The translations under genes and the position numbers were made by a program. Source: a virus. From it: DNA of 36,744 nucleotides. Below the pieces are notes generated by a model. The model saw nothing but the letters and a program-made list of their open reading frames with translations, did not search any database and was not told the origin of the DNA. Below, one piece after another: positions 2,903-33,208 of the stretch; the stretch's first letter is position 1; the number at the start of each line of letters is the position of its first letter. The DNA is taken from the IMG/VR virus record IMGVR_UViG_3300025769_000346, positions 1-36,744 of that record; one strand, given 5' to 3'.

Positions 2903-3280
2903 ATGTTCAATGACGAGAAGGAACCCCTCTCTATGCTCATTGAAGTCACTCCTCGGTTAGCCAAAAAACGTTATCGACAATCAATATACGAAGCCTGGAA
3001 CCACTGTTGTGGTTATTGTGGTAGACCAGCAACATCTTTAGATCATATTATTCCTCGTTTTAAATCAGGCTCTAGTAATCGTAATAACCTGGTTCCATCT
3101 TGCCAACGTTGTAATAGTAATAAAGGTAGCTGCAATATGGAGGAATGGTTTCGTGAACAAAAATACTTTTGTCAAGAAAGACTAGAGAGAATTAAAGACT
3201 GGATGGATGTATCTTACATTTCTTGCAGTATTCAATCTTATAATGTAAATAACTTGTCTCCAGATCCAGAAGCTGCATAA
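2903..3280 (+). CDS. HNH endonuclease, 125 aa
   Basis: Classical HNH nuclease core with zinc knuckles: CCGYCG (C36, C39), the LDHIIPR motif with the general-base His 48, an Asn pair at 61-62, and CQRCNSNKG (C67, C70). A basic helix (RLAKKRYRQSIYEAW) precedes the core, and a charged C-terminal extension follows. Such free-standing HNH genes in phages act as homing endonucleases, nicking enzymes or packaging aids. It stands directly ahead of the 1247-aa probable virion gene, four bases away, so it is likely on the same transcript. The substrate cannot be told from the sequence. Confidence 0.85.
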   Translation: MFNDEKEPLSMLIEVTPRLAKKRYRQSIYEAWNHCCGYCGRPATSLDHIIPRFKSGSSNRNNLVPSCQRCNSNKGSCNMEEWFREQKYFCQERLERIKDWMDVSYISCSIQSYNVNNLSPDPEAA

Positions 3281-3284
3281 ATAA

Positions 3285-6200
3285 ATGACGGGTCCAATTA
3301 TTATTTTTAATCCAGGGATGACAGCAGGGATTCCTGTGCAAAATATTCCCAATGTATCTGTTCAGCCCACAATTCCACACGGAGGTACTTTAACAACTGA
3401 ACAAGCCATAGAACAAGTTTTAAAAGAATTAGAGGAACAAAAAGCAGCCTTAGCACCACCACCTGAAGCAGAAACTATTATTAGTAGTGATCTAGATTTA
3501 ATTCAAGAAAATACTTTTTTAGATAATGAAATATCAGAAGGACAAACTTACCCTAGCTCTGTAATTAATAGTCAAACAAGTACAACAACTACTGCAGATT
3601 ATCCATCTACAAGTTTGTACTATGATCCAAATCTTGATGATAATGAAAAACTTAGTTATACAAGAAATAATATAGCTTTACTTTTGCCTTTTAAATTAGG
3701 AGGAAATATTCCCCTAACTCCTGTTTATCCAACACTTGAAACTACTCAAAGTGCTGTTGTCCGAGCACACGTTCCATCAGCATCTGCAAATAACTGGAAA
3801 GCCGCAGAAGTTAGATATACAGCACCTGGAGGTGCTGTACCGCAAGGAAGTACAGAGATTGCAAGTTATGGTTATGAAGCTGATGGGAGAGCAGTAAGTG
3901 TTGGTGCATCAGGCGCAAAAAATGCAGAAGCAAATGAACAAGTAAATAGTGCTTTAAAAAACACACAACCACAAGTAACTAAAATAAATACAGAAAATGC
4001 CGAAAAAAGAGGCAGAAATCAAGAAAAAATAAACAATTACGATGCTGAGGTTGCTATAGCAAATAAAAGAAATAAAGTTTTAGACGCTGCTCATCAAGCT
4101 TTTCTTGATCAAAGAAATAATATCAATGGAAATCAAACGGGTAATTATTTAGAAAATAGAGATGGTTTATTAAAAGCATTAACTTCTTTAAATGTTGCAG
4201 ACCAAAGAGGCTATGAAGAGTTATTTAGAACTTTTTATATTAAAGAAGGTTTAGCCCCTGAAGCTTATAATTCTTTTAAAGAGCCGCCCTATGGAAATTT
4301 TAATAAAAATTATTATGAAACTCAAGATATTGAAGCAAAAAATAAATTTGACAATATTGTTGCGCTTGATGATGTTGATCTTTTAAGCAGATATGGAGCA
4401 GTTAGTAAAACTGATTTTGCATCTAAAGAAAACAAAGAAGACTATGATGCTACTAATTTTTACAGATTTAACTATACTCAACGAGTATTAAATGGTGAAA
4501 ATGTTAGAGCAAATGAAGCAGAAGATCTAAAAAAATACGAAGGAGAAAATTTACAAGCAGAAGATATTATTACAGATGAAAGTATCCAGACGATAAGAGA
4601 TAAACAGTTAGGTGTTACCTTAGATGAAAACTCTGAATTAGATGTTATAAAAAACAATGACTATTGGAAAAAACAATATGAAGCAGCTTTATCAGGAGAT
4701 GAAAAAAACGCAGACTATCGCTATTGGCAAGAATTACAAAACGATCCTGCGTATTCAACAGAAAGTTTAGCTGGTGGTCGTATCCCTGTTTTTGAAATTA
4801 GTAAAGATAAACCAAATGATTTTGTTAGTTTGTTTTTAAAATCTCAAAGAGAAGCTGATACAACAGCAATAGAAAATATTCAAAGTGAAGCCGGAAGCGA
4901 TGCTTACATAACAGAATTTGAAGATATGATCAATAATTTAATTGGTCAAGAAAGACTTCAACAGGTTAGTCAATTTGGTAATCTAACAAAAGACGCATTA
5001 CAGCAAACAGTTGCTGAAATTCAAAACCAAAAAGCCAAAGAACAAAACATTGCTTTTTATCAAGGATTAGGTTCTTTTTCTGAAGTTTTTAATGCTGGAA
5101 AAACAATTGCTGATTCATTTTTAAATGACAGCGGCATTGGTGGAATACTACCAATGTCAAATAGGGGTAGAGATTATGCAAAAAGATTAGAAGATAAATT
5201 AGAAGGTTCAATATCAGGTTTAAAGAACAGTGTTGAATATAACTGGGAAACATGGTTTAAAGATACACTAAGCAAGAGATATTCGCCTAACTATGAAGAA
5301 AACAAAGAACGCTATCAACCCTATGAAATAAAAGAAAATATTTTAACCGCATTTAATAAATTTTTAAACCGCAATCTAGGTGTTGATCCATACAATCAAG
5401 AAGAAGGTGAGTTTAATGCGGTATTTTTAGATGCAGCAGGATTTAATGACACAGCCGAGTTAATTAATTATTTAAATGATCAAGCAATAAAAGAAGAAAA
5501 AATACTTGAAAATCCAGAAAGTTTAAACGCTTTGACGGAAGCAGAAAGAGCCGCATTAAGTACATCATCTTTAGACATATTAAATTTAATACAAGAAACA
5601 AGTCCAACAAGAAATGAAGTTTCTGAATATAGTGAATTTATAAAAAAAATAGAAAATTTAATTACTAATCAAAGAAATGCAATCGATTCTCTTGATGAAG
5701 AACTAGGAAACAACTTAACTATTGATGGAATAGATGAAACAGTTGCTGGTAGATTTGCCAGGGATTTTGTTAATGATTATTTAAAACCAAGATTTGATAC
5801 ATCCAGATCAATGGATGAATTTGTTGAATATATGGATGTTCGCCAAGAAGAAAAAAATCCTTTTCAAACAGAAGATTTAGCTTTTGCTTTAAGAAATGCC
5901 GGACAAATTCAAGCCAATGCTTATTTAGAAGAACTTGAAAAGAGCATTGGAGAAACATCTAAATTTAATACTGATTTTTATTTTGATCCTATGGGAAATG
6001 GAGCAAGAGTAAACCCGCAAAAAGAACAAGAGTTGCAAAATCAAAGTGAGACAGTTAATAAAGATTGGGAAGATGCACAAGAAAATAATTTTAAAAATGA
6101 AATTCCAGGTACAACCATTGGTGATACATGGTATTCACAAGCTTATAGATATGGTTTAGGTGGATTTAATGAAGAAGGAAAGTGGACGTTAAGTAAAGAT

Positions 6201-12819: not shown

Positions 12820-15800
12820 GTGGCCGATAGAAAGATTACAGAACTAGGCGCTATTAATGCCTCTAGTATTGCAGACGATGATCTGTATACGCTTGTTGAT
12901 GTTTCTGAGGTTGACCCTGGTTTAAAAAATAAAAAATTTACGTTTGCTTCTTCAAAAGAATACTATAATTTTTACTATCTTCAATTAACTGGCGGAACTG
13001 TTTCCGGTAACTTAACGGTCACCGGAAATCTTTCTGTTGGAGGAAATTTTTCTCCCGCAAATATTGATGTTACAGGTGTAAGCACTTTTAATCGTTTAAA
13101 TTGTACAGGAACTGGTACATTTACTAGTCTATTAAGTGGCGCGAATATTACTGGAGCAGTTGTAAATGTTGGTAATCTTTTTACCGATACCGGAAATATA
13201 TTAGATTTAACAGTTACAACTATAACTGGAGGCAGCGGAAATTTTGTCAGACTTTCTGGTCAAACTGTTACGGGCGCCACAGGTGCTTTTACTAATGTCA
13301 CTGGTCAAAATATAAGCGGTACTACTGCCAGTATTACTACGATTTCTGGCACAAATGCCACAGTTACAAGCACCATATCAGGTGCAACAATAACAGGAGA
13401 CACTGGTAATTTTACTAACTTTACTGCGACCAATATTACTGGCGCTACAATTACAGGTGCTACTGGCCAGTATTCTGTATTAGATGCAGGCACTGGAAAA
13501 TTTACGCTTGTTTCAGGCGCAACAGTTACCGGAACAACAGGTCAATTAGGAACATTAACAGGAGGTACTGGTAATTTTGTTCTGGTATCAGGAGATACGG
13601 TAAAAGGAACAACAATTACTGGAACAACTGGACAAATTGTTAATTTAACTAGTACGTCAGGATTTTTTACTTATGTTTCAGGAGGAAATGTTACAGGAGA
13701 CACAGGTAACTTTAGTAATTTAACAGCAGACACTGGAAGTTTTACTTACTTAACAGGCACTACTATTTCTGGTGCAACTGGTAATTTTAATAATTTAAGT
13801 ACCGATACAGGCACATTTACTCTTATAAGTGGAACTACAGTCACTGGCGATACAGGAAACTTTACATCAATTACAGCAGCAACAGGTACTTTTACAAGCT
13901 CTTTAAGTTTTCCTAGTTTAACTCTAACTGGCGATTTAACTGTTGGCAAAAAATTATACGTTGGCGAAGATGCGTTAATTACAGGAATTACAACAGTTGC
14001 TAGAGCAACTGGTTATGACTTTATCGTAAATTCAACTACATCAGGAGATGTAATTACTGTTGAGCCAAGTGGTGTTGTTTATATTCAAGATCCATTAGTT
14101 ATACCTGTAGCCAATAGAGCAAGTGGTGCTGGTTACTATATAAATACAGGGACTACAAACATTACAGGTAATAACACAACACTAGATTACAGTGGTGGAA
14201 ATGGTTTTAATTACGAAGGCAATAATGCAAGTGGTTACTATGGAAATTTAGTTGTACCCAATTTAATTTCCACAGATACAATTACAGGTTCTGCAGCTAC
14301 CTTTAGCAATTTAACAGGTAGTACTACTATTTCAGGTGGAACAATTTATGGCGGTACTATTACCGGAACTACTGGTCAATTTCCAACACTAACAGGTGGA
14401 ACTGGTACGTTTACGCTTGTTAGCGGAACCACCGTTACAGGCGCTACTGGTAGTTTTACCCAAGCAACGGCAGGAACAGGAACCTTTACTCTAGTCAGTG
14501 GAACAACTGTAACGGGAGGCACTGGTAACTTTGCTAATTTAACTGGTGGAACTGGTACATTTACTCTTGTTACCGGAACTACTGTTCAAGGTGCCACAGG
14601 GGATTTTGATACCATCAGTGGAACTAGTGGAATAATCACTACTATTTCTGGAGTTACTTTAATTACTGGTGTTACCGCTAGTTTCACAACAGGTAACTTT
14701 ACAGTTGCTAATTTCGTTATTGAAACAACAGGTAACATTACAACTACTGGTGGCTATGTTTCAGGTGCTAGTGGTTTATTTACTGATGCAAATATAACAG
14801 GTTTAATTATTTCAGGTAGCGGTGGTAATTTTGATGTATTAACAGGTGGCACAATCACAGGCACCACTGGGGATTTTGCAAGGGTAAATGTAGACACTGG
14901 TGTATTCACTTTTGCAAGTGGGACATCAGGCGCATTTACAACTATTACAGGCACAACAGGACATTTTGTTACATTAACTGTTGATACTGGTATTATCAGG
15001 GAAAAATTAACTGTTACTGGTGACGCATATTTTACTGAAGATATTTTTATTACAGGATCAGGTGACTTTGGATCTGGTATTGGCTTAAAAGCAACAGGTG
15101 AAGTTAAATTTTATGACGCAGATTCAACTCATTATGTTGCTTTTAAATCTGCTGATACAGTTTCTACTAATGTTACTTGGGTCCTTCCAGCTACTGATGC
15201 AACTACTTCTGGGGATGTACTATTAAGTGACGCAGCTGGTACATTAAGTTGGGGTGCAGTTGCGAGTCTTAGTGGTATAACAGATGATGCCGCACCTTTT
15301 ACTACTGCATTAGGTGCAGGAGCTGGAACAGGTATTACTTCTAATGGTACTGGAAATACTGCGGTCGGTTATCAAGCATTAAATACTAATACCACTGGAA
15401 AATACAATATTGCAGTAGGTTATAATTCAGCCATTAGCTCAACTGGTAATTATAATATTGTTATTGGACATGAAGCAGCTAGTGGACTTGTTAATAATGG
15501 TACTATTGCCATTGGTTCTGGTAGCGCAATAAATGTTTCGGGTAGTGAAATACTTACTATTGGTAATGGCAATTTAATTTCAGGTTTTGGTGGTAGTAAT
15601 GTTATTGCTATTGGTAATAATATTCTTGTAACCGGTCAGTTTTCTTCAGGAACCCAGCTTACCGGCGTAATTGCTATTGGTAATAATATAAATTTTCATA
15701 ACGCACTTAGTAGAAACCTTATTGCTATAGGTGAAGGCGCTTTAGAAAATAGTTCTCCATATCATGCAGTTGCAATTGGTTCCGGTGCTGGTAATCGTAT

Positions 15801-17853
15801 TTCTGGAACTGCTTCTCAAATTGCTTTTACTACTTTAGTTGGAGATGAAGCAGGTAAACATGCAAATGGTGATACATATGGTACAACATTTATTGGTGCT
15901 GCTGCAGGTTTTCAATCAGCAGTAACATCTTCTTATCCATTTAATACTGCAATAGGTAACAATGCTTTTAACAACGGTTCTGGCGATAGAAATACTGCAA
16001 TAGGTGCTTATGCTATAAATAAGGGCTCTGGTGATAGAAATAATGCAATAGGCAATTATGCTTTTCTGTCAGGTCTAGGTTCTGATAATGATGTTTTAGG
16101 TTATGGTGCTGGTCAAGCTATTAATGGAGACTATAATGTTGCAATTGGTCATCGAGCAGGTAGAGACTTAAGTGGAGATTATAATATTGCAATTGGATAT
16201 TTAGCATTAAGTGGAACAACAAGTACTGGTAATATTGCAATTGGTTATGAAGCACTAAGATCTGATAACACTGGAAGTGGTAATACTGCAGTAGGTTATC
16301 AAGCATTAACAGCTAATACTTATGGCTTCTTTAATACTGCTATTGGTTATCAAGTACTAGATGCTAATATTTCCGGGTATTACAATACTGCAGTAGGTTA
16401 TCACGCATTAACTGCTAATACTACTGGCTCAGCTAATACTGCTGTTGGTTATGAAGCATTAAAAACTAATACTGTTGGTGTTATAAACACTGCAGTAGGT
16501 TATGCTGCACTGAAAAATAATACTACTGGCAACTATAATTCTGCATTTGGTAATGATGCATTAGGTGATAACATTGGTGGATCCAAACTTGTTGCGATAG
16601 GTAATAGTGCGTTAAGCAGAAATACATATGGCGAATTTAATACTGCAATAGGCTATGACTCACTTTATTACAATACTACTGGCAGCCGTAATACTGCGTT
16701 AGGTTATCAAGCTGCATATAACAATACAACTGGATTTCAAAATACTGCAGTAGGTTATCAAGCTGCATATAGCAATACAGTTGGAGTATATAACACTGCA
16801 GTAGGTTACAAAGCACTGTCTGGTAATACTAATGGTGTAGGTAACACTGCAGTAGGTTATACTGCTTTAAGAGATACTATAACTGGACGAGATAACACTG
16901 CAATAGGCTACGGAGCACTGTCTGGTAGTACCAGTGGAAATTCTAATGTTGCAGTTGGTTCGGAAGCATTAAGCAGAAATACTAGTGGCGACGCTAATAC
17001 TGCATTAGGTTATCAAGCTTTATATAGCAACACCTATATATCAGGAAATACTGCAATTGGCTATAAAGCTTTATACACTAGTAGTGTTGGAAATTTAAAT
17101 GTAGCAGTGGGATATGAAGCACTAACAAGTCTTTCAAGTCAAAGTCAAAATGTAGCAGTCGGCTATCAAGCTTTAAGCGCTTGTATTGGGAATTATAATA
17201 CTGCAGTTGGTTATCACGCACTTTATAACACTACTACTGGTAGAGACAATGCTGCATATGGCTGGGGTGCATTAAAAGACAATACTATTGGCGAAAGAAA
17301 CTGCGCACTAGGTAGTGAAGCTTTATTAAATCATATTACTGGAAGCTACAACATTGCAATAGGTTTCCAGGCAATGAGAATGACTGAAACAGGAAATCAC
17401 AATATTTGCATTGGACATAACGCAGGACGGCTTTTAGCGAAAGACGACAATACTATTATTGGATATATTTCAGGCGTAGCAACAGACAGTGGAATCATTA
17501 GAATTGGTGCTGGTAGTACTGAAAGAATTTATGTTGATACTGTAGGTGTTGTTAGCGGCAATGCATTTGCACAAACAACTGCAACAATGCCAGCTAATGA
17601 AATAAATCCAGCTAATGGTGGTATTCAGTACAAAACAGTAAGTGCAGATACAACATTTACTGAAGCCCTGGTTTCTGGTGAATCTGTCTTAGTCCATTTA
17701 ACTTCTGGCTCAAGCCATACTTTGACATGGCCCACAATTACCTGGGTTACTTCTGCTGGTAACAGTGCTCCAACATTTACTGATGACGATATACTAGTAT
17801 TCTGGAAGTTCGGCACCACACTTTACGGTGCATATGGCGGGAGCTTTGCATAA
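12820..17853 (+). CDS. Giant tail fibre / host-recognition protein, 1677 aa
   Basis: Three parts are visible. Residues 1-85 (DRKITELGAINASSIADDDL ... LTGGTVSGNLTVTGNLSVGG) look like the virion-attachment end of phage tail fibres. Residues about 90-830 are Thr/Gly/Ser-rich repeats around GTFTLVSGTTVTG, typical of extended beta-helical shafts. Residues about 840-1540 hold repeats of NTAVGYQAL type, mostly 17 residues, related to head-type repeats of trimeric adhesins. The last 140 residues (PANEINPANGGIQYKTV ... GTTLYGAYGGSFA) are a distinct tip. No S74 chaperone motif was seen. Start is GTG after an eight-codon leader; the stop overlaps the next gene (TAATG). Trimeric, host-binding function is inferred from the architecture. 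Confidence 0.88.
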   Translation: MADRKITELGAINASSIADDDLYTLVDVSEVDPGLKNKKFTFASSKEYYNFYYLQLTGGTVSGNLTVTGNLSVGGNFSPANIDVTGVSTFNRLNCTGTGTFTSLLSGANITGAVVNVGNLFTDTGNILDLTVTTITGGSGNFVRLSGQTVTGATGAFTNVTGQNISGTTASITTISGTNATVTSTISGATITGDTGNFTNFTATNITGATITGATGQYSVLDAGTGKFTLVSGATVTGTTGQLGTLTGGTGNFVLVSGDTVKGTTITGTTGQIVNLTSTSGFFTYVSGGNVTGDTGNFSNLTADTGSFTYLTGTTISGATGNFNNLSTDTGTFTLISGTTVTGDTGNFTSITAATGTFTSSLSFPSLTLTGDLTVGKKLYVGEDALITGITTVARATGYDFIVNSTTSGDVITVEPSGVVYIQDPLVIPVANRASGAGYYINTGTTNITGNNTTLDYSGGNGFNYEGNNASGYYGNLVVPNLISTDTITGSAATFSNLTGSTTISGGTIYGGTITGTTGQFPTLTGGTGTFTLVSGTTVTGATGSFTQATAGTGTFTLVSGTTVTGGTGNFANLTGGTGTFTLVTGTTVQGATGDFDTISGTSGIITTISGVTLITGVTASFTTGNFTVANFVIETTGNITTTGGYVSGASGLFTDANITGLIISGSGGNFDVLTGGTITGTTGDFARVNVDTGVFTFASGTSGAFTTITGTTGHFVTLTVDTGIIREKLTVTGDAYFTEDIFITGSGDFGSGIGLKATGEVKFYDADSTHYVAFKSADTVSTNVTWVLPATDATTSGDVLLSDAAGTLSWGAVASLSGITDDAAPFTTALGAGAGTGITSNGTGNTAVGYQALNTNTTGKYNIAVGYNSAISSTGNYNIVIGHEAASGLVNNGTIAIGSGSAINVSGSEILTIGNGNLISGFGGSNVIAIGNNILVTGQFSSGTQLTGVIAIGNNINFHNALSRNLIAIGEGALENSSPYHAVAIGSGAGNRISGTASQIAFTTLVGDEAGKHANGDTYGTTFIGAAAGFQSAVTSSYPFNTAIGNNAFNNGSGDRNTAIGAYAINKGSGDRNNAIGNYAFLSGLGSDNDVLGYGAGQAINGDYNVAIGHRAGRDLSGDYNIAIGYLALSGTTSTGNIAIGYEALRSDNTGSGNTAVGYQALTANTYGFFNTAIGYQVLDANISGYYNTAVGYHALTANTTGSANTAVGYEALKTNTVGVINTAVGYAALKNNTTGNYNSAFGNDALGDNIGGSKLVAIGNSALSRNTYGEFNTAIGYDSLYYNTTGSRNTALGYQAAYNNTTGFQNTAVGYQAAYSNTVGVYNTAVGYKALSGNTNGVGNTAVGYTALRDTITGRDNTAIGYGALSGSTSGNSNVAVGSEALSRNTSGDANTALGYQALYSNTYISGNTAIGYKALYTSSVGNLNVAVGYEALTSLSSQSQNVAVGYQALSACIGNYNTAVGYHALYNTTTGRDNAAYGWGALKDNTIGERNCALGSEALLNHITGSYNIAIGFQAMRMTETGNHNICIGHNAGRLLAKDDNTIIGYISGVATDSGIIRIGAGSTERIYVDTVGVVSGNAFAQTTATMPANEINPANGGIQYKTVSADTTFTEALVSGESVLVHLTSGSSHTLTWPTITWVTSAGNSAPTFTDDDILVFWKFGTTLYGAYGGSFA
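15345..17430 (+). repeat. In-frame ~51-bp repeats encoding TAVGYQAL-type adhesin repeats
   Basis: The DNA repeats a 51-base unit, with some shorter or longer, encoding about 17 residues with a core Asn-Thr-Ala-Val/Ile-Gly-Tyr-x-Ala-Leu. The most regular stretch is 16270-16520. The core codons (aatactgcagtaggttat) are strongly conserved, which should favour slippage or recombination and so rapid length change of the fibre. It is coding, not a CRISPR array. Confidence 0.85.
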
Positions 17854-28431: not shown

Positions 28432-29232
28432 TTAAATTAGATCAGGATCATAAACATTACAGTTTTCAATTTGTTTGTAATACTCTTCGACAATCTTGAG
28501 CCAGTCTTTATGTAAGATGTCTAAGAATCGTCTTGATATTTTAAATATTTGTGTTCTTAATGGCGTTGAAACAAGAATTGCAGCCTGATCTACTGTGATC
28601 CCTAGCGTTTGTTGGATGGCGATATCGTATGCTGCCAATTGTTTACATGTTTTTTTAAACTTCATGTGACCACCTAATAAGTCACGCCATTCTTGTGAAC
28701 CTTTTTCTACATCTTTTGGCCAACGTCTTGAATAAGGTTTTACTGATGTTTTGAGGTCAGCAAGAGTAAGTTTATTGTTAGCAACTGCAATAATATCAGG
28801 AGCGCCAGCCCACGAACGTCCCTCGTCATCACTGCCCCATACACGAGCAACGTCATCACCACCGATAGTGAAATTGAACTTTTCCAAAACTGGGGTCTCA
28901 GCCCATAGTACTTCTTGAAACTGGTCAAGTACAGCCGGCATACCCTGCCAAAATTCCTGGTACTCCGTTTCAATTTCTGGATTCTTATTGCCTTTAAGAT
29001 ATTGTTCCATTCCATAGTGGATACAAGTTCCTCGATGAGCTGCTAGTTCTTTTTGTCCAGGGTTGGCCTTAGACCACATCTCTAATTTTCTTTTGTTTGC
29101 TTCTGAAGCTGTCTCAGAAATAATTGTAGTAACTGATGGAGCTGGGCCGGTAGCAAGTGGTGTTGTGTAATGACGCCTACCATTTAATGTGATACGTGCA
29201 GCAGATCTATTTAATTCTTTTAGCTTTTTCAT
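28432..29232 (-). CDS. PD-(D/E)XK exonuclease, RecB/Cas4-like, 266 aa
   Basis: Nuclease motifs in order: HRGTCIHYGMEQYL (His72, Glu76), GAPDIIAV (Asp146), LTLADLKTS (Asp159-x-Lys161) and the family's KQLAAYDIA (Gln198, Tyr202). This is the layout of RecB/Cas4-type and phage exonucleases used in DNA recombination, end processing or host DNA breakdown. No iron-sulfur Cys cluster as in Cas4 is visible. Its promoter region faces the plus-strand 29-aa peptide gene. It likely works with the primase-helicase in replication and recombination. Confidence 0.87.
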   Translation of the reverse strand: MKKLKELNRSAARITLNGRRHYTTPLATGPAPSVTTIISETASEANKRKLEMWSKANPGQKELAAHRGTCIHYGMEQYLKGNKNPEIETEYQEFWQGMPAVLDQFQEVLWAETPVLEKFNFTIGGDDVARVWGSDDEGRSWAGAPDIIAVANNKLTLADLKTSVKPYSRRWPKDVEKGSQEWRDLLGGHMKFKKTCKQLAAYDIAIQQTLGITVDQAAILVSTPLRTQIFKISRRFLDILHKDWLKIVEEYYKQIENCNVYDPDLI

Positions 29233-30109: not shown

Positions 30110-30319
30110 ATGAGTTTATCTACACAAGTAAAAGATTCTGTTACCGAAGCTTCTAAGTTATTGCGCGAAGCAATTGCTTTTGCGGCTCGTTCAGAACATC
30201 CGATTGTTTTAGTTTCTCTTTCAGACATTGTTCATAAGTTAGATCAGTTAGATTCTATGGATGAACTAATGAGTCATTTAGATGGAATGCGAAGAGGAGA
30301 ATACAAAGAAGTCGAATGA
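30110..30319 (+). CDS. Small conserved-type phage protein, 69 aa
   Basis: Helical peptide MSLSTQVKDSVTEASKLLRE, then AIAFAARSEHPIVLVSLSDI and an acidic end. ATG 30110 is chosen because AAAGAG precedes it; ATG 30086 would add eight residues. Not recognised with certainty. The next gene starts inside its 3' end (38 bases overlap). Confidence 0.6.
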   Translation: MSLSTQVKDSVTEASKLLREAIAFAARSEHPIVLVSLSDIVHKLDQLDSMDELMSHLDGMRRGEYKEVE

Positions 30320-31121
30320 ACAGGAAAGGTTTGACAAGTTTTTTAAAGACCTAGAAAATTTAATTCCTGAACCTGACTTTATTTTTGTAGACGACATGAG
30401 TACTCTGATTGCAAACGTACCTCCAATTAAAGTGTGGGTCAGACGAGAATATTTAAGAGATTTTCGTGATGGCCATGGTGACTATACACCAGGATACTGG
30501 GTTACTTGTAAGTCTTTGACAGGACGTGCCCTTTATTTTGAAACATATTTAACTGAGTATGGTGCGCTTTATGACAAACTTCCTATTAGTGCTTTTCTTG
30601 CTTGGGATAGTGACCATCCCGACTGCCCCGTGGATCCTACTCCTGATCTCCCGTTAACGGATCTACAGTTTTGGAATGGATTCGATACTGGAATTACTGT
30701 TGTAGAAAAGAATTTAATTTATAATATGGAGTTTGAAGTAATGACCAGATCATCTGGTACATTAAAAGGAACGTATTTATTTACAATAGATAACTATCAT
30801 CCTCATAGAAACGAGGCTGATTTTTATTTTTCAGAAGTACCTGATGAACACAAATCTCACAACATTATTGAATTAGAAAATGGACAAATCGGAGCTTATC
30901 CAAACAACCGTTGTCGTATGTTGGATCCTTCTCTTACTCATAATGAATTAAAGAACCCTGATTTCAAAGTTTCAACACGCTATTTTAATGTAGAGCATGC
31001 TCCTAAATGGGGTCGGCTCGGTGAAACAGACGACTACTTTTGGAGGACTCCACAAGAAAATGGATCAACACACATTCGACAATTGGAAAAAGATCAAGAT
31101 AGCCCTGGAGGAAGCAAATAA
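30282..31121 (+). CDS. Hypothetical conserved-type phage protein, 279 aa
   Basis: A charged N-terminus (ECEEENTKKSNEQERFDKFF), then a well-ordered globular part: KVWVRREYLRDFRDGHGDYT, WVTCKSLTGRALYFETYLTE, AFLAWDSDHPDCPVDPTPDL and a C-terminal FNVEHAPKWGRLGETDDYFW. Many aromatic and Asp/Pro residues, no membrane helix, no enzyme motif that I recognise. Its start overlaps the preceding gene by 38 bases, in another frame, and no other in-frame ATG fits the gap. Confidence 0.65.
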   Translation: MECEEENTKKSNEQERFDKFFKDLENLIPEPDFIFVDDMSTLIANVPPIKVWVRREYLRDFRDGHGDYTPGYWVTCKSLTGRALYFETYLTEYGALYDKLPISAFLAWDSDHPDCPVDPTPDLPLTDLQFWNGFDTGITVVEKNLIYNMEFEVMTRSSGTLKGTYLFTIDNYHPHRNEADFYFSEVPDEHKSHNIIELENGQIGAYPNNRCRMLDPSLTHNELKNPDFKVSTRYFNVEHAPKWGRLGETDDYFWRTPQENGSTHIRQLEKDQDSPGGSK

Positions 31122-31233
31122 AACAGATTGCATGTTTTATAAAAGAGCTTGCTCTATTATTGAAACTAAAAGAGATCCATTAGAACATGTGTTTAGAGAA
31201 AACAGAAAAGAAATACAAGAAAACAAAGAATAA
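31060..31233 (+). CDS. Small charged protein, 57 aa
   Basis: Starts MDQHTFDNWKKIKIALEEAN, continues KTDCMFYKRACSIIETKRDP and ends in a Glu/Lys-rich helix. ATG 31060 overlaps the previous gene by 62 bases; the longer frame from 30997 is less protein-like. It overlaps the following HNH gene by 47 bases. Not recognised. Confidence 0.5.
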   Translation: MDQHTFDNWKKIKIALEEANKTDCMFYKRACSIIETKRDPLEHVFRENRKEIQENKE

Positions 31234-31441
31234 ACTATTAGAGTATAAGAAAAACTTATCATGCAGTCATTGTGGACTCCAAGATCATAGAGTCTTGGAG
31301 TTTCATCATTTAAACGATAAAAAATATACTGTTTCAAGAATGCCAGCCAAAGGTTATAGCTGGCAGACTATATTAAATGAAATTCAGAAATGTATTCCTT
31401 TGTGTTGCAACTGTCATAGAATTATTCACTACGAAGCATAG
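31187..31441 (+). CDS. HNH endonuclease-like protein, 84 aa
   Basis: Compact HNH domain: C26-x2-C29 in LSCSHCGLQ, LEFHHLND with the His pair 40-41 as general base, CIPLCCNCHRIIHY with C73 and C76 closing the zinc site and H77/H81. A basic N-terminal helix (KKYKKTKNKLLEYKK) could bind DNA. Small stand-alone HNH proteins are frequent mobile or nicking genes in phages. Its 3' end overlaps the convergent Dps-like gene by 20 bases. Confidence 0.8.
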   Translation: MCLEKTEKKYKKTKNKLLEYKKNLSCSHCGLQDHRVLEFHHLNDKKYTVSRMPAKGYSWQTILNEIQKCIPLCCNCHRIIHYEA

Positions 31442-31928
31442 CTTTAATAAACCAAGCAGCTTTAAATGCTTCACCACAAAGCTCAGCCATGTAGTTTTGA
31501 ACATCAATTGCTTTAACTTTAGCAGCTTGCTGTTCCAACTTTTTGGTCATCATGCCAAGGTCTTCTAAGTTTTTATAGTAAACGCCCAACATATCGTTGG
31601 GCTTATAACTTTTTACATGGTTAAATTTAGGAGAAGCATCCATCAAACCTTCATGGCATATAGGCATAAGGTAATCCATGGAGCGAATAAATTCTCCTAG
31701 CTTATCAAATTGTTCTGTATGTGCTTCGTATTGGTCTTTAAGGAACGCATGCACACCCAAGAAGTTACCAGCTTCATAATTAAAATGCATCAGATGAGAT
31801 TGAACCTGAAGCTGGTGAACATAAGCAGAGAGTTTAATCAGATCTCTAATAAAATTATTAATATTAGTTTCTTTCTTCTTAGGTTCAGGTGTTTGTTCTT
31901 CCGGTGATTCTGTATAAGGTGTGTACAT
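31422..31928 (-). CDS. dps: Dps-like ferritin-family protein, 168 aa
   Basis: Dps proteins store iron at peroxide-consuming ferroxidase sites and bind DNA. The full Dps ferroxidase spacing is present: His48 (LMHFNYEAGNF), His60 (LGVHAFLKDQ), Asp75 and Glu79 (TEQFDKLGEFIRSM), i.e. steps of 12, 15 and 4 residues, as in Escherichia coli (H51, H63, D78, E82) and Listeria Dps. The auxiliary acidic residue at His+4 is Lys here. Overall it is a four-helix layout with a last helix CGEAFKAAWFIKAML; an acidic, Pro/Lys-rich N-terminus of about 22 residues precedes it. ATG 31928 shares a base with the stop of the 426-aa virion gene (TGATG). Confidence 0.8.
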   Translation of the reverse strand: MYTPYTESPEEQTPEPKKKETNINNFIRDLIKLSAYVHQLQVQSHLMHFNYEAGNFLGVHAFLKDQYEAHTEQFDKLGEFIRSMDYLMPICHEGLMDASPKFNHVKSYKPNDMLGVYYKNLEDLGMMTKKLEQQAAKVKAIDVQNYMAELCGEAFKAAWFIKAMLRSE

Positions 31929-33208
31929 CAAACTTCCTCCCAAGTAATTGTAGCTAGTATATCAGCACCAGCAGTATCTGATTCTGCTGCAAGAGTTAAT
32001 TCATACATTGTACCAGCTTCTGAATTTCTGCATAACTGATATTTAAAGACTTCACTTTGTGGAATATCAACTACAACATTTCCCTGGTTGGAACCAGCTG
32101 CATAGCCTTCTAATAAATTTTCACCTTCTGTGTATCCAGTTGCAGTGATGTTGTATTCAACAGAAGAATCATCACCAGCAGATACCCAAGTACCACCAAG
32201 AGAAGTACCAGCTCTTTCAATATGATAACGATAGTTTACGTTGTTGGTAATACCAGCAAGAGATAAATGATTAAGTACTACAACAGCATCTGGTCTAGCA
32301 GATTTAAGACGCAATGAGATAATAGAATGAAGATCACCCGTCGTTGGCAAATCTTTTGGTTGAGATGGATGTAAACCAATTGCTTTTGATTGACCTTGTA
32401 ATTGATATCCACCTTCTGAAATTACAGTAGAACAGATTTGTTTCATCTGTCCAGTTACAGTTGTAGTATCTAAGTTTTCAATCTCATAACGAATAGGCAA
32501 TGATGCCGTAGTCATGTAGGTTGATTCAATTTGATTTGCATTCTGAAAAGAATGACAATGAATTTTTTTACCATCAATAATAAAACCAACTCTAACAGTA
32601 CCAACACCTAGCCATTCCATATCAGACCAAAAGACCTGAGCCTTGGTGGGATCCAAAGTAATAGAAGAACGACCTGTTCCATCAAGAGGATCAATATTCC
32701 AATCTTCTTGATTAACAATTGTATTTCTTACATCACCTGTAACTGAATCGCGCTTAACAATTGATACGCCACTAATACCACTTTGTTCAAAATAAATACC
32801 ATTATCTACACTAAAGTATCCAACTCGCTGTCGTCTATTAGCAACACCAGAGTTAAAAACAAAAGTATTTAGGGAGAGCAAAGACTTACCAGGCTGGTAA
32901 GAAAATACTTTTTTTGTTTCACGAATAATTTTATCGCCTGATGCGGTCGTTACATTTAAATCTATCAAACCTCCACTGGAATTAAAAGCAGTAGTTGCAC
33001 TACCACCAGTGGTCGTTACCCATGACCCGTTGTCGTAATAACGATGTTTAGAATCAAATAAAGTAAAAACTGTAGATACTCTTTGACGACCAAAGGCATC
33101 TACAGCAGTTGTAAGAGGAGAAGTAGTAACTTCTAGTGGGCGACCACTAATTGTTTCAACTTTACGAACAGTATAAATACAACCACCGTGATCAAAAGCA
33201 TTAGCCAC
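31928..33208 (-). CDS. Conserved phage virion protein, 426 aa
   Basis: Recognisable block: VDAFGRQRVSTVFTLFDSKH, RETKKVFSYQPGKSLLSLNT, NRRQRVGYFSVDNGIYFEQ, KAQVFWSDMEWLGVGTVRVG and STYMTTASLPIRYEIEN. This pattern recurs in structural proteins of many aquatic phages and is usually annotated as virion or tail-associated. Beta-rich throughout; the last 100 residues (GTSLGGTWVSAGDDSSVEYN and onward) form a separate Ig- or jelly-roll-like end. Start is GTG at 33208. It is directly followed by the Dps-like gene. Confidence 0.8.
   Translation of the reverse strand: MANAFDHGGCIYTVRKVETISGRPLEVTTSPLTTAVDAFGRQRVSTVFTLFDSKHRYYDNGSWVTTTGGSATTAFNSSGGLIDLNVTTASGDKIIRETKKVFSYQPGKSLLSLNTFVFNSGVANRRQRVGYFSVDNGIYFEQSGISGVSIVKRDSVTGDVRNTIVNQEDWNIDPLDGTGRSSITLDPTKAQVFWSDMEWLGVGTVRVGFIIDGKKIHCHSFQNANQIESTYMTTASLPIRYEIENLDTTTVTGQMKQICSTVISEGGYQLQGQSKAIGLHPSQPKDLPTTGDLHSIISLRLKSARPDAVVVLNHLSLAGITNNVNYRYHIERAGTSLGGTWVSAGDDSSVEYNITATGYTEGENLLEGYAAGSNQGNVVVDIPQSEVFKYQLCRNSEAGTMYELTLAAESDTAGADILATITWEEV

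Follow-up and report, generated by a model that had tools for sequence, protein, structure and literature searches.

A lineage-specific Dps-family protein with a variant iron site in a phage related to Synechococcus phage S-EIV1

Does a phage that carries a gene for a Dps-like ferritin use the product in its virion or inside the infected cell? The question is raised by an open reading frame of 168 codons on the minus strand (31422–31928) of a 36,744-nucleotide stretch of viral DNA, IMG/VR record IMGVR_UViG_3300025769_000346, which is referred to here as the window. An initial annotation, made from the letters alone, described the gene as a Dps-like ferritin 'fused by overlap' to a virion gene.

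Identity and position of the gene

From its profile matches and predicted fold, the product of 31422–31928 is a member of the Dps (miniferritin) family and not a chance resemblance. It matches Pfam Ferritin (PF00210) with an E-value of 6.8e-12, at 46 bits against a gathering cut-off of 24.5 bits, and PHROG 3636 over the whole core (E 1.4e-30); the label of the latter, 'DNA binding protein', is a name only, for a predicted function. The sequence match in the PDB is 3KWO (E 2e-8). An AlphaFold2 model of the monomer, built from a 54-sequence alignment (pLDDT 85.6), predicts five helices in the Dps order, at residues 21–50, 56–83, 92–97, 110–137 and 141–166, with the short extra BC helix typical of Dps between the halves of a four-helix bundle; residues 1–19 form a disordered Pro/Lys N-terminal tail. 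The best 50 PDB fold matches listed by Foldseek were all Dps, with an rmsd mostly of 1.4–2.3 Å and about 13–24% identity. The fold is shared with, among others, Campylobacter 3KWO, HP-NAP (1JI4), Listeria Dps (2IY4) and Bacillus MrgA (2CHP). Together, the Pfam, PHROG, 3KWO and fold matches bear out the reading of the protein as a Dps-like ferritin.

The gene starts with an ATG at 31928 and its stop ends at 31422; these coordinates were given correctly in the initial annotation, as were the residues that it named (H48, H60, D75 and E79, at spacings of 12, 15 and 4, and K64). Base 31928 is indeed shared with the stop of the adjoining upstream gene (TGATG), which encodes a 426-aa protein (31928–33208, minus strand) matching PHROG 1645, labelled virion structural protein. 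The one-base overlap is real but there is no fusion, as dps encodes a separate protein with its own Shine–Dalgarno-like GGAGG seven bases 5′ of the ATG. At the other end, the last 20 bases of dps are overlapped by a convergent 84-aa HNH-endonuclease-like open reading frame (31187–31441, plus strand).

Phage-encoded Dps as such is not new. Several are present in the viral structure library, and Dps proteins with a proposed role in coping with iron and oxidative damage have been described in Lactobacillus plantarum phages (PMC6669764) and in the 'Gratiaviridae' gut phages (PMC8008677), which have other hosts and are unrelated to the window phage. No study of a cyanophage Dps was found in the literature searched. 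In the viral structure library (BFVD), some phage proteins that bear the name prohead protease also contain Dps-fold domains (ranks 7, 10 and 17).

The iron site

H48, H60, D75 and E79, which correspond to the Dps ligands H51, H63, D78 and E82 in E. coli-type numbering, are invariant in all 66 distinct sequences in an alignment of relatives, so that the spacing H48-12-H60-15-D75-4-E79, noted initially as a copy of the Dps ferroxidase centre, is exact and fixed throughout the family. 3KWO and HP-NAP have the same spacing. The canonical Dps centre, however, has five ligands, of which the fifth, an Asp or Glu at position 67, binds site B through water (PMC6675082). This residue is missing from every phage sequence, and the five-residue centre with it: the corresponding position 64 is Lys in 45 (including K64 of the window) and Gly in 21, and is never acidic, while the residue that follows is Asp in 48 of the 66. 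The Lys that had been singled out after the second His is therefore a fixed trait of the lineage, as Lys or Gly, and no quirk of the window copy.

Other features of the site are equally constant. None of the 66 has the Trp found next to the first His in Dps (the Trp52 position), its place being taken by Leu, Phe or Val; 3KWO and HP-NAP have this Trp as well as a Glu four residues after the second His, and the window protein has neither. Four residues after the first His, all 66 sequences have a Glu (E52), in contrast to the Lys of the aligned solved Dps relatives. H70 and C91 are invariant within the phage family, and H45 of the window protein is common to HP-NAP-like Dps. The position-67 acid is likewise absent from the cyanobacterial His-type proteins NpDps4 and TeDpsA (PMC6675082); NpDps4, from Nostoc, has Asn67, and its Asp68 is unused. 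NpDps4 has His78, whereas the window protein keeps Asp75 at that place, as do all 66 sequences, and the phage family is therefore not of the His type. Since Lys or Gly at position 67 and the lack of the Trp hold for 66/66, we regard the iron site as a lineage-specific variant.

Nostoc Dps4 has no acid at position 67 either, yet it binds two irons and uses O2, although not H2O2, to oxidise Fe2+ (PMC6675082). By analogy, iron oxidation by the window Dps is likely in spite of the missing acid, with O2 or H2O2 as the oxidant; the Dps identity and the four retained ligands agree with the plausibility that the initial annotation had given to this activity. Loss of the carboxylate at the K64 site and of the Trp could lower the activity or alter the preference for oxidant. 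The altered site offers a precise biochemical test of the role of the position-67 carboxylate in Dps.

Distribution and selection in the S-EIV1-like lineage

Gene by gene, the window, from a freshwater-type phage, matches Synechococcus phage S-EIV1 in order, at roughly 35–80% protein identity. This collinearity makes a cyanobacterial host plausible, although the G+C content is 36% in the window and 46% in the S-EIV1 stretch compared; for the 'illuminated host' assumed initially, the support is only indirect, through kinship with a Synechococcus phage. The S-EIV1 orthologue (KJ410740; AHV82153, 'DNA-binding ferritin-like protein') is about 62–71% identical to the window Dps and lies in the same genomic neighbourhood. 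It has the same ferroxidase residues, but with Gly at position 64 instead of Lys. The immediate flanks differ: S-EIV1 has no PHROG 1645 gene upstream of dps, and, unlike in the window, a 489-aa gene overlaps the dps stop.

A profile scan of viral contigs gave 188 Dps relatives, of which 80 were kept. S-EIV1 was the only match for the phage Dps subfamily in the phages collection. Among bacterial and archaeal genome contigs, a scan with two lineage-specific peptide patterns, which misses ordinary Dps, found a single relative, on a contig from a metagenome-assembled genome (MAG). This phage-type dps (2938–3465 of locus L096) lies on a contig that was binned as a Euryarchaeota MAG and is probably viral. 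No plasmid match to the phage Dps was found. Recent capture of dps from a host is disfavoured, given one MAG-contig match with the lineage-specific patterns, no plasmid match and only 13–24% identity to solved Dps.

Presence of the gene was surveyed independently by anchoring on an exonuclease-like gene (window 28432–29232). Of 54 lineage loci that extend 8 kb or more into the relevant flank, 50 contain dps, as do all 16 contigs of near-complete size (76–85 kb). The seven lineage contigs without dps are fragments of 28–69 kb and so are uninformative on absence. Ratios of dN/dS between related pairs were 0.03–0.09 for the whole gene and 0.02–0.08 for the core. The gene is also kept where the 426-aa gene is not: in S-EIV1, in locus L016 and in a divergent GC-rich group (L008–L012), the last with dps in a different gene setting. 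We conclude that dps is a near-universal core gene of the S-EIV1-like lineage, under strong purifying selection. Such retention by nearly all members of a widespread lineage suggests that control of iron and peroxide is a core need of infection by these phages and no optional extra. The annotation of dps in S-EIV1 was already known; its core status in the lineage, the variant iron site and the non-basic tail of the window copy are new.

Expression context and role of the protein

PHROG 1645 is common in cyanophages; the 426-aa protein is modelled as beta-rich and resembles lectins weakly (TM about 0.3 over the query). In 45 of the 65 evaluable non-redundant loci, a co-directional homologue is located no more than 1 kb upstream of dps, at a median gap of 37 bp, which overturns our own view from 11 loci that this neighbour is not conserved. 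It is missing from S-EIV1, L016 and about a third of relatives, all of which keep dps, and the one-base overlap was seen in the window only among the loci listed. In the window dps is co-directional with the primase and exonuclease genes; in S-EIV1 it shares the direction of those for DNA polymerase, SSB and primase, whereas terminase is encoded on the other strand. Expression with virion proteins, which had been drawn from the shared base, does not follow from it. With dps on the strand of the replication genes, neither late expression nor packaging is implied. Gene order would allow co-expression with virion proteins in many relatives, but the retention of dps in the lineage does not depend on such co-expression.

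The N-terminal tail bears on a further function. Most relatives begin with MYTPGPQ, followed by a variable linker and then by a Lys/Pro-rich KPKAPGKSK; the MYTP start is found on essentially no other open reading frame in the loci examined. In classic Dps, DNA is bound by a basic tail at the N terminus (PMC7762939). Here, the net charge of the tail has a median of +1 among relatives and is −2 in the window copy, as is that of the core. Since the tail of the window copy carries no net positive charge, DNA binding by this Dps is doubtful, and binding mediated by the tail would be weak at best.

We think it probable, on sequence and structural modelling, that the gene encodes a lineage-specific Dps, a 12-mer miniferritin that handles iron and peroxide inside the cell and is made with replication and metabolism genes. 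Twelve of the modelled monomers would assemble into a cage, Fe2+ would be oxidised at intersubunit sites, with a site B altered by the loss of the position-67 carboxylate, and the ferric product would be stored inside. Free iron and peroxide, harmful to phage DNA and replication enzymes, would thereby be removed within the infected cell. The protein would most likely be produced with the replication and metabolism genes of the same strand, and not as a part of the virion. Against this reading count K64 in place of the fifth ligand, the missing Trp after the first His and, in most relatives, the virion-labelled homologue just upstream, which is compatible with late expression.

That homologue, directly upstream in 45/65 loci, also favours a late Dps, co-transcribed with the PHROG 1645 gene, that is packaged with the DNA or delivered along with it and shields it at entry or afterwards, as do the conserved MYTPGPQ start and the Dps-fold domains within proteins named prohead protease. 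We nevertheless hold a virion-associated Dps to be rather unlikely: the neighbour is absent from S-EIV1, L016 and others with dps, the gene lies opposite to terminase, the overlap is peculiar to the window, the 426-aa fold is only weakly lectin-like and no known capsid-targeting signal is in evidence. The KPKAPGKSK tail of most relatives, together with the precedent of classic Dps, could instead point to a protein that mainly binds or condenses DNA, to take over the nucleoid or to pack phage DNA during its replication, the iron site being of secondary importance. The charges of tail and core and the invariance of all four retained metal ligands make this quite improbable. More improbable still is a Dps whose catalysis weakened when the position-67 carboxylate was lost and which has been retained for another purpose, such as metal sequestration or scaffolding. 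The Lys or Gly at position 64, the missing Trp and the invariant E52, where solved relatives have Lys, would fit such a protein; yet the Nostoc enzyme with Asn67 retains both irons and its activity with O2, and H48, H60, D75 and E79 never vary.

Downstream of dps many relatives have a variable slot, which is empty in the window. In 35/63 evaluable relatives, a co-directional open reading frame of at least 85 aa begins on the dps stop or immediately beyond it, and in 28 of these the overlap is one base; the variable gene often stands between dps and the HNH-like frame, which marks the far edge of the slot. Slot genes start on the dps stop, overlapping it by one or four bases, and their products are mosaics (L034, L036, L044, L045, L065, L066, L068, L069, L077, L085, L093 and others), in which leaders or C-terminal modules are exchanged, so that unrelated bodies bear either a common leader (~37 aa) or a common C-terminal module (~120–150 aa). 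Profile searches assigned the slot proteins to no credible family, and two of them, searched against the phages collection, had no relative there. By eye, kinase-like motifs are seen in the slot proteins of L065, L068 and L069, and HExxH in those of L025, L043, L066 and L085. One may picture dps as the constant middle of a cassette, between an adhesin-like virion gene and an exchangeable effector-like gene coupled to its stop, with Dps and the mosaic proteins delivered by the virion; we give this little credence. If true, the phage would possess an iron and peroxide shield for its entering DNA along with swappable effectors.

Several names given to neighbouring genes deserve caution. The S-EIV1 'sulfate adenylyltransferase' (KJ410740 17153–18619; L001 15444–16910) has no NCBIfam support, Pfam gives no match to its relative in L077, and unrelated slot proteins carry its C-terminal module as well; on these comparisons the name is doubtful. 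Equally doubtful, from profile searches, are both names of the product of window 30282–31121 (plus strand), which matches PHROG 3704 'ferredoxin' (9e-97), is called PurM in S-EIV1 and has no significant Pfam or NCBIfam support. Elsewhere in the window, 12820–17853 (plus strand) encodes a 1677-aa fibre-like protein, in which TGTFTLVSGTTVTGATG-type repeats are followed by NTAVGYQAL-type repeats resembling the heads of trimeric adhesins.
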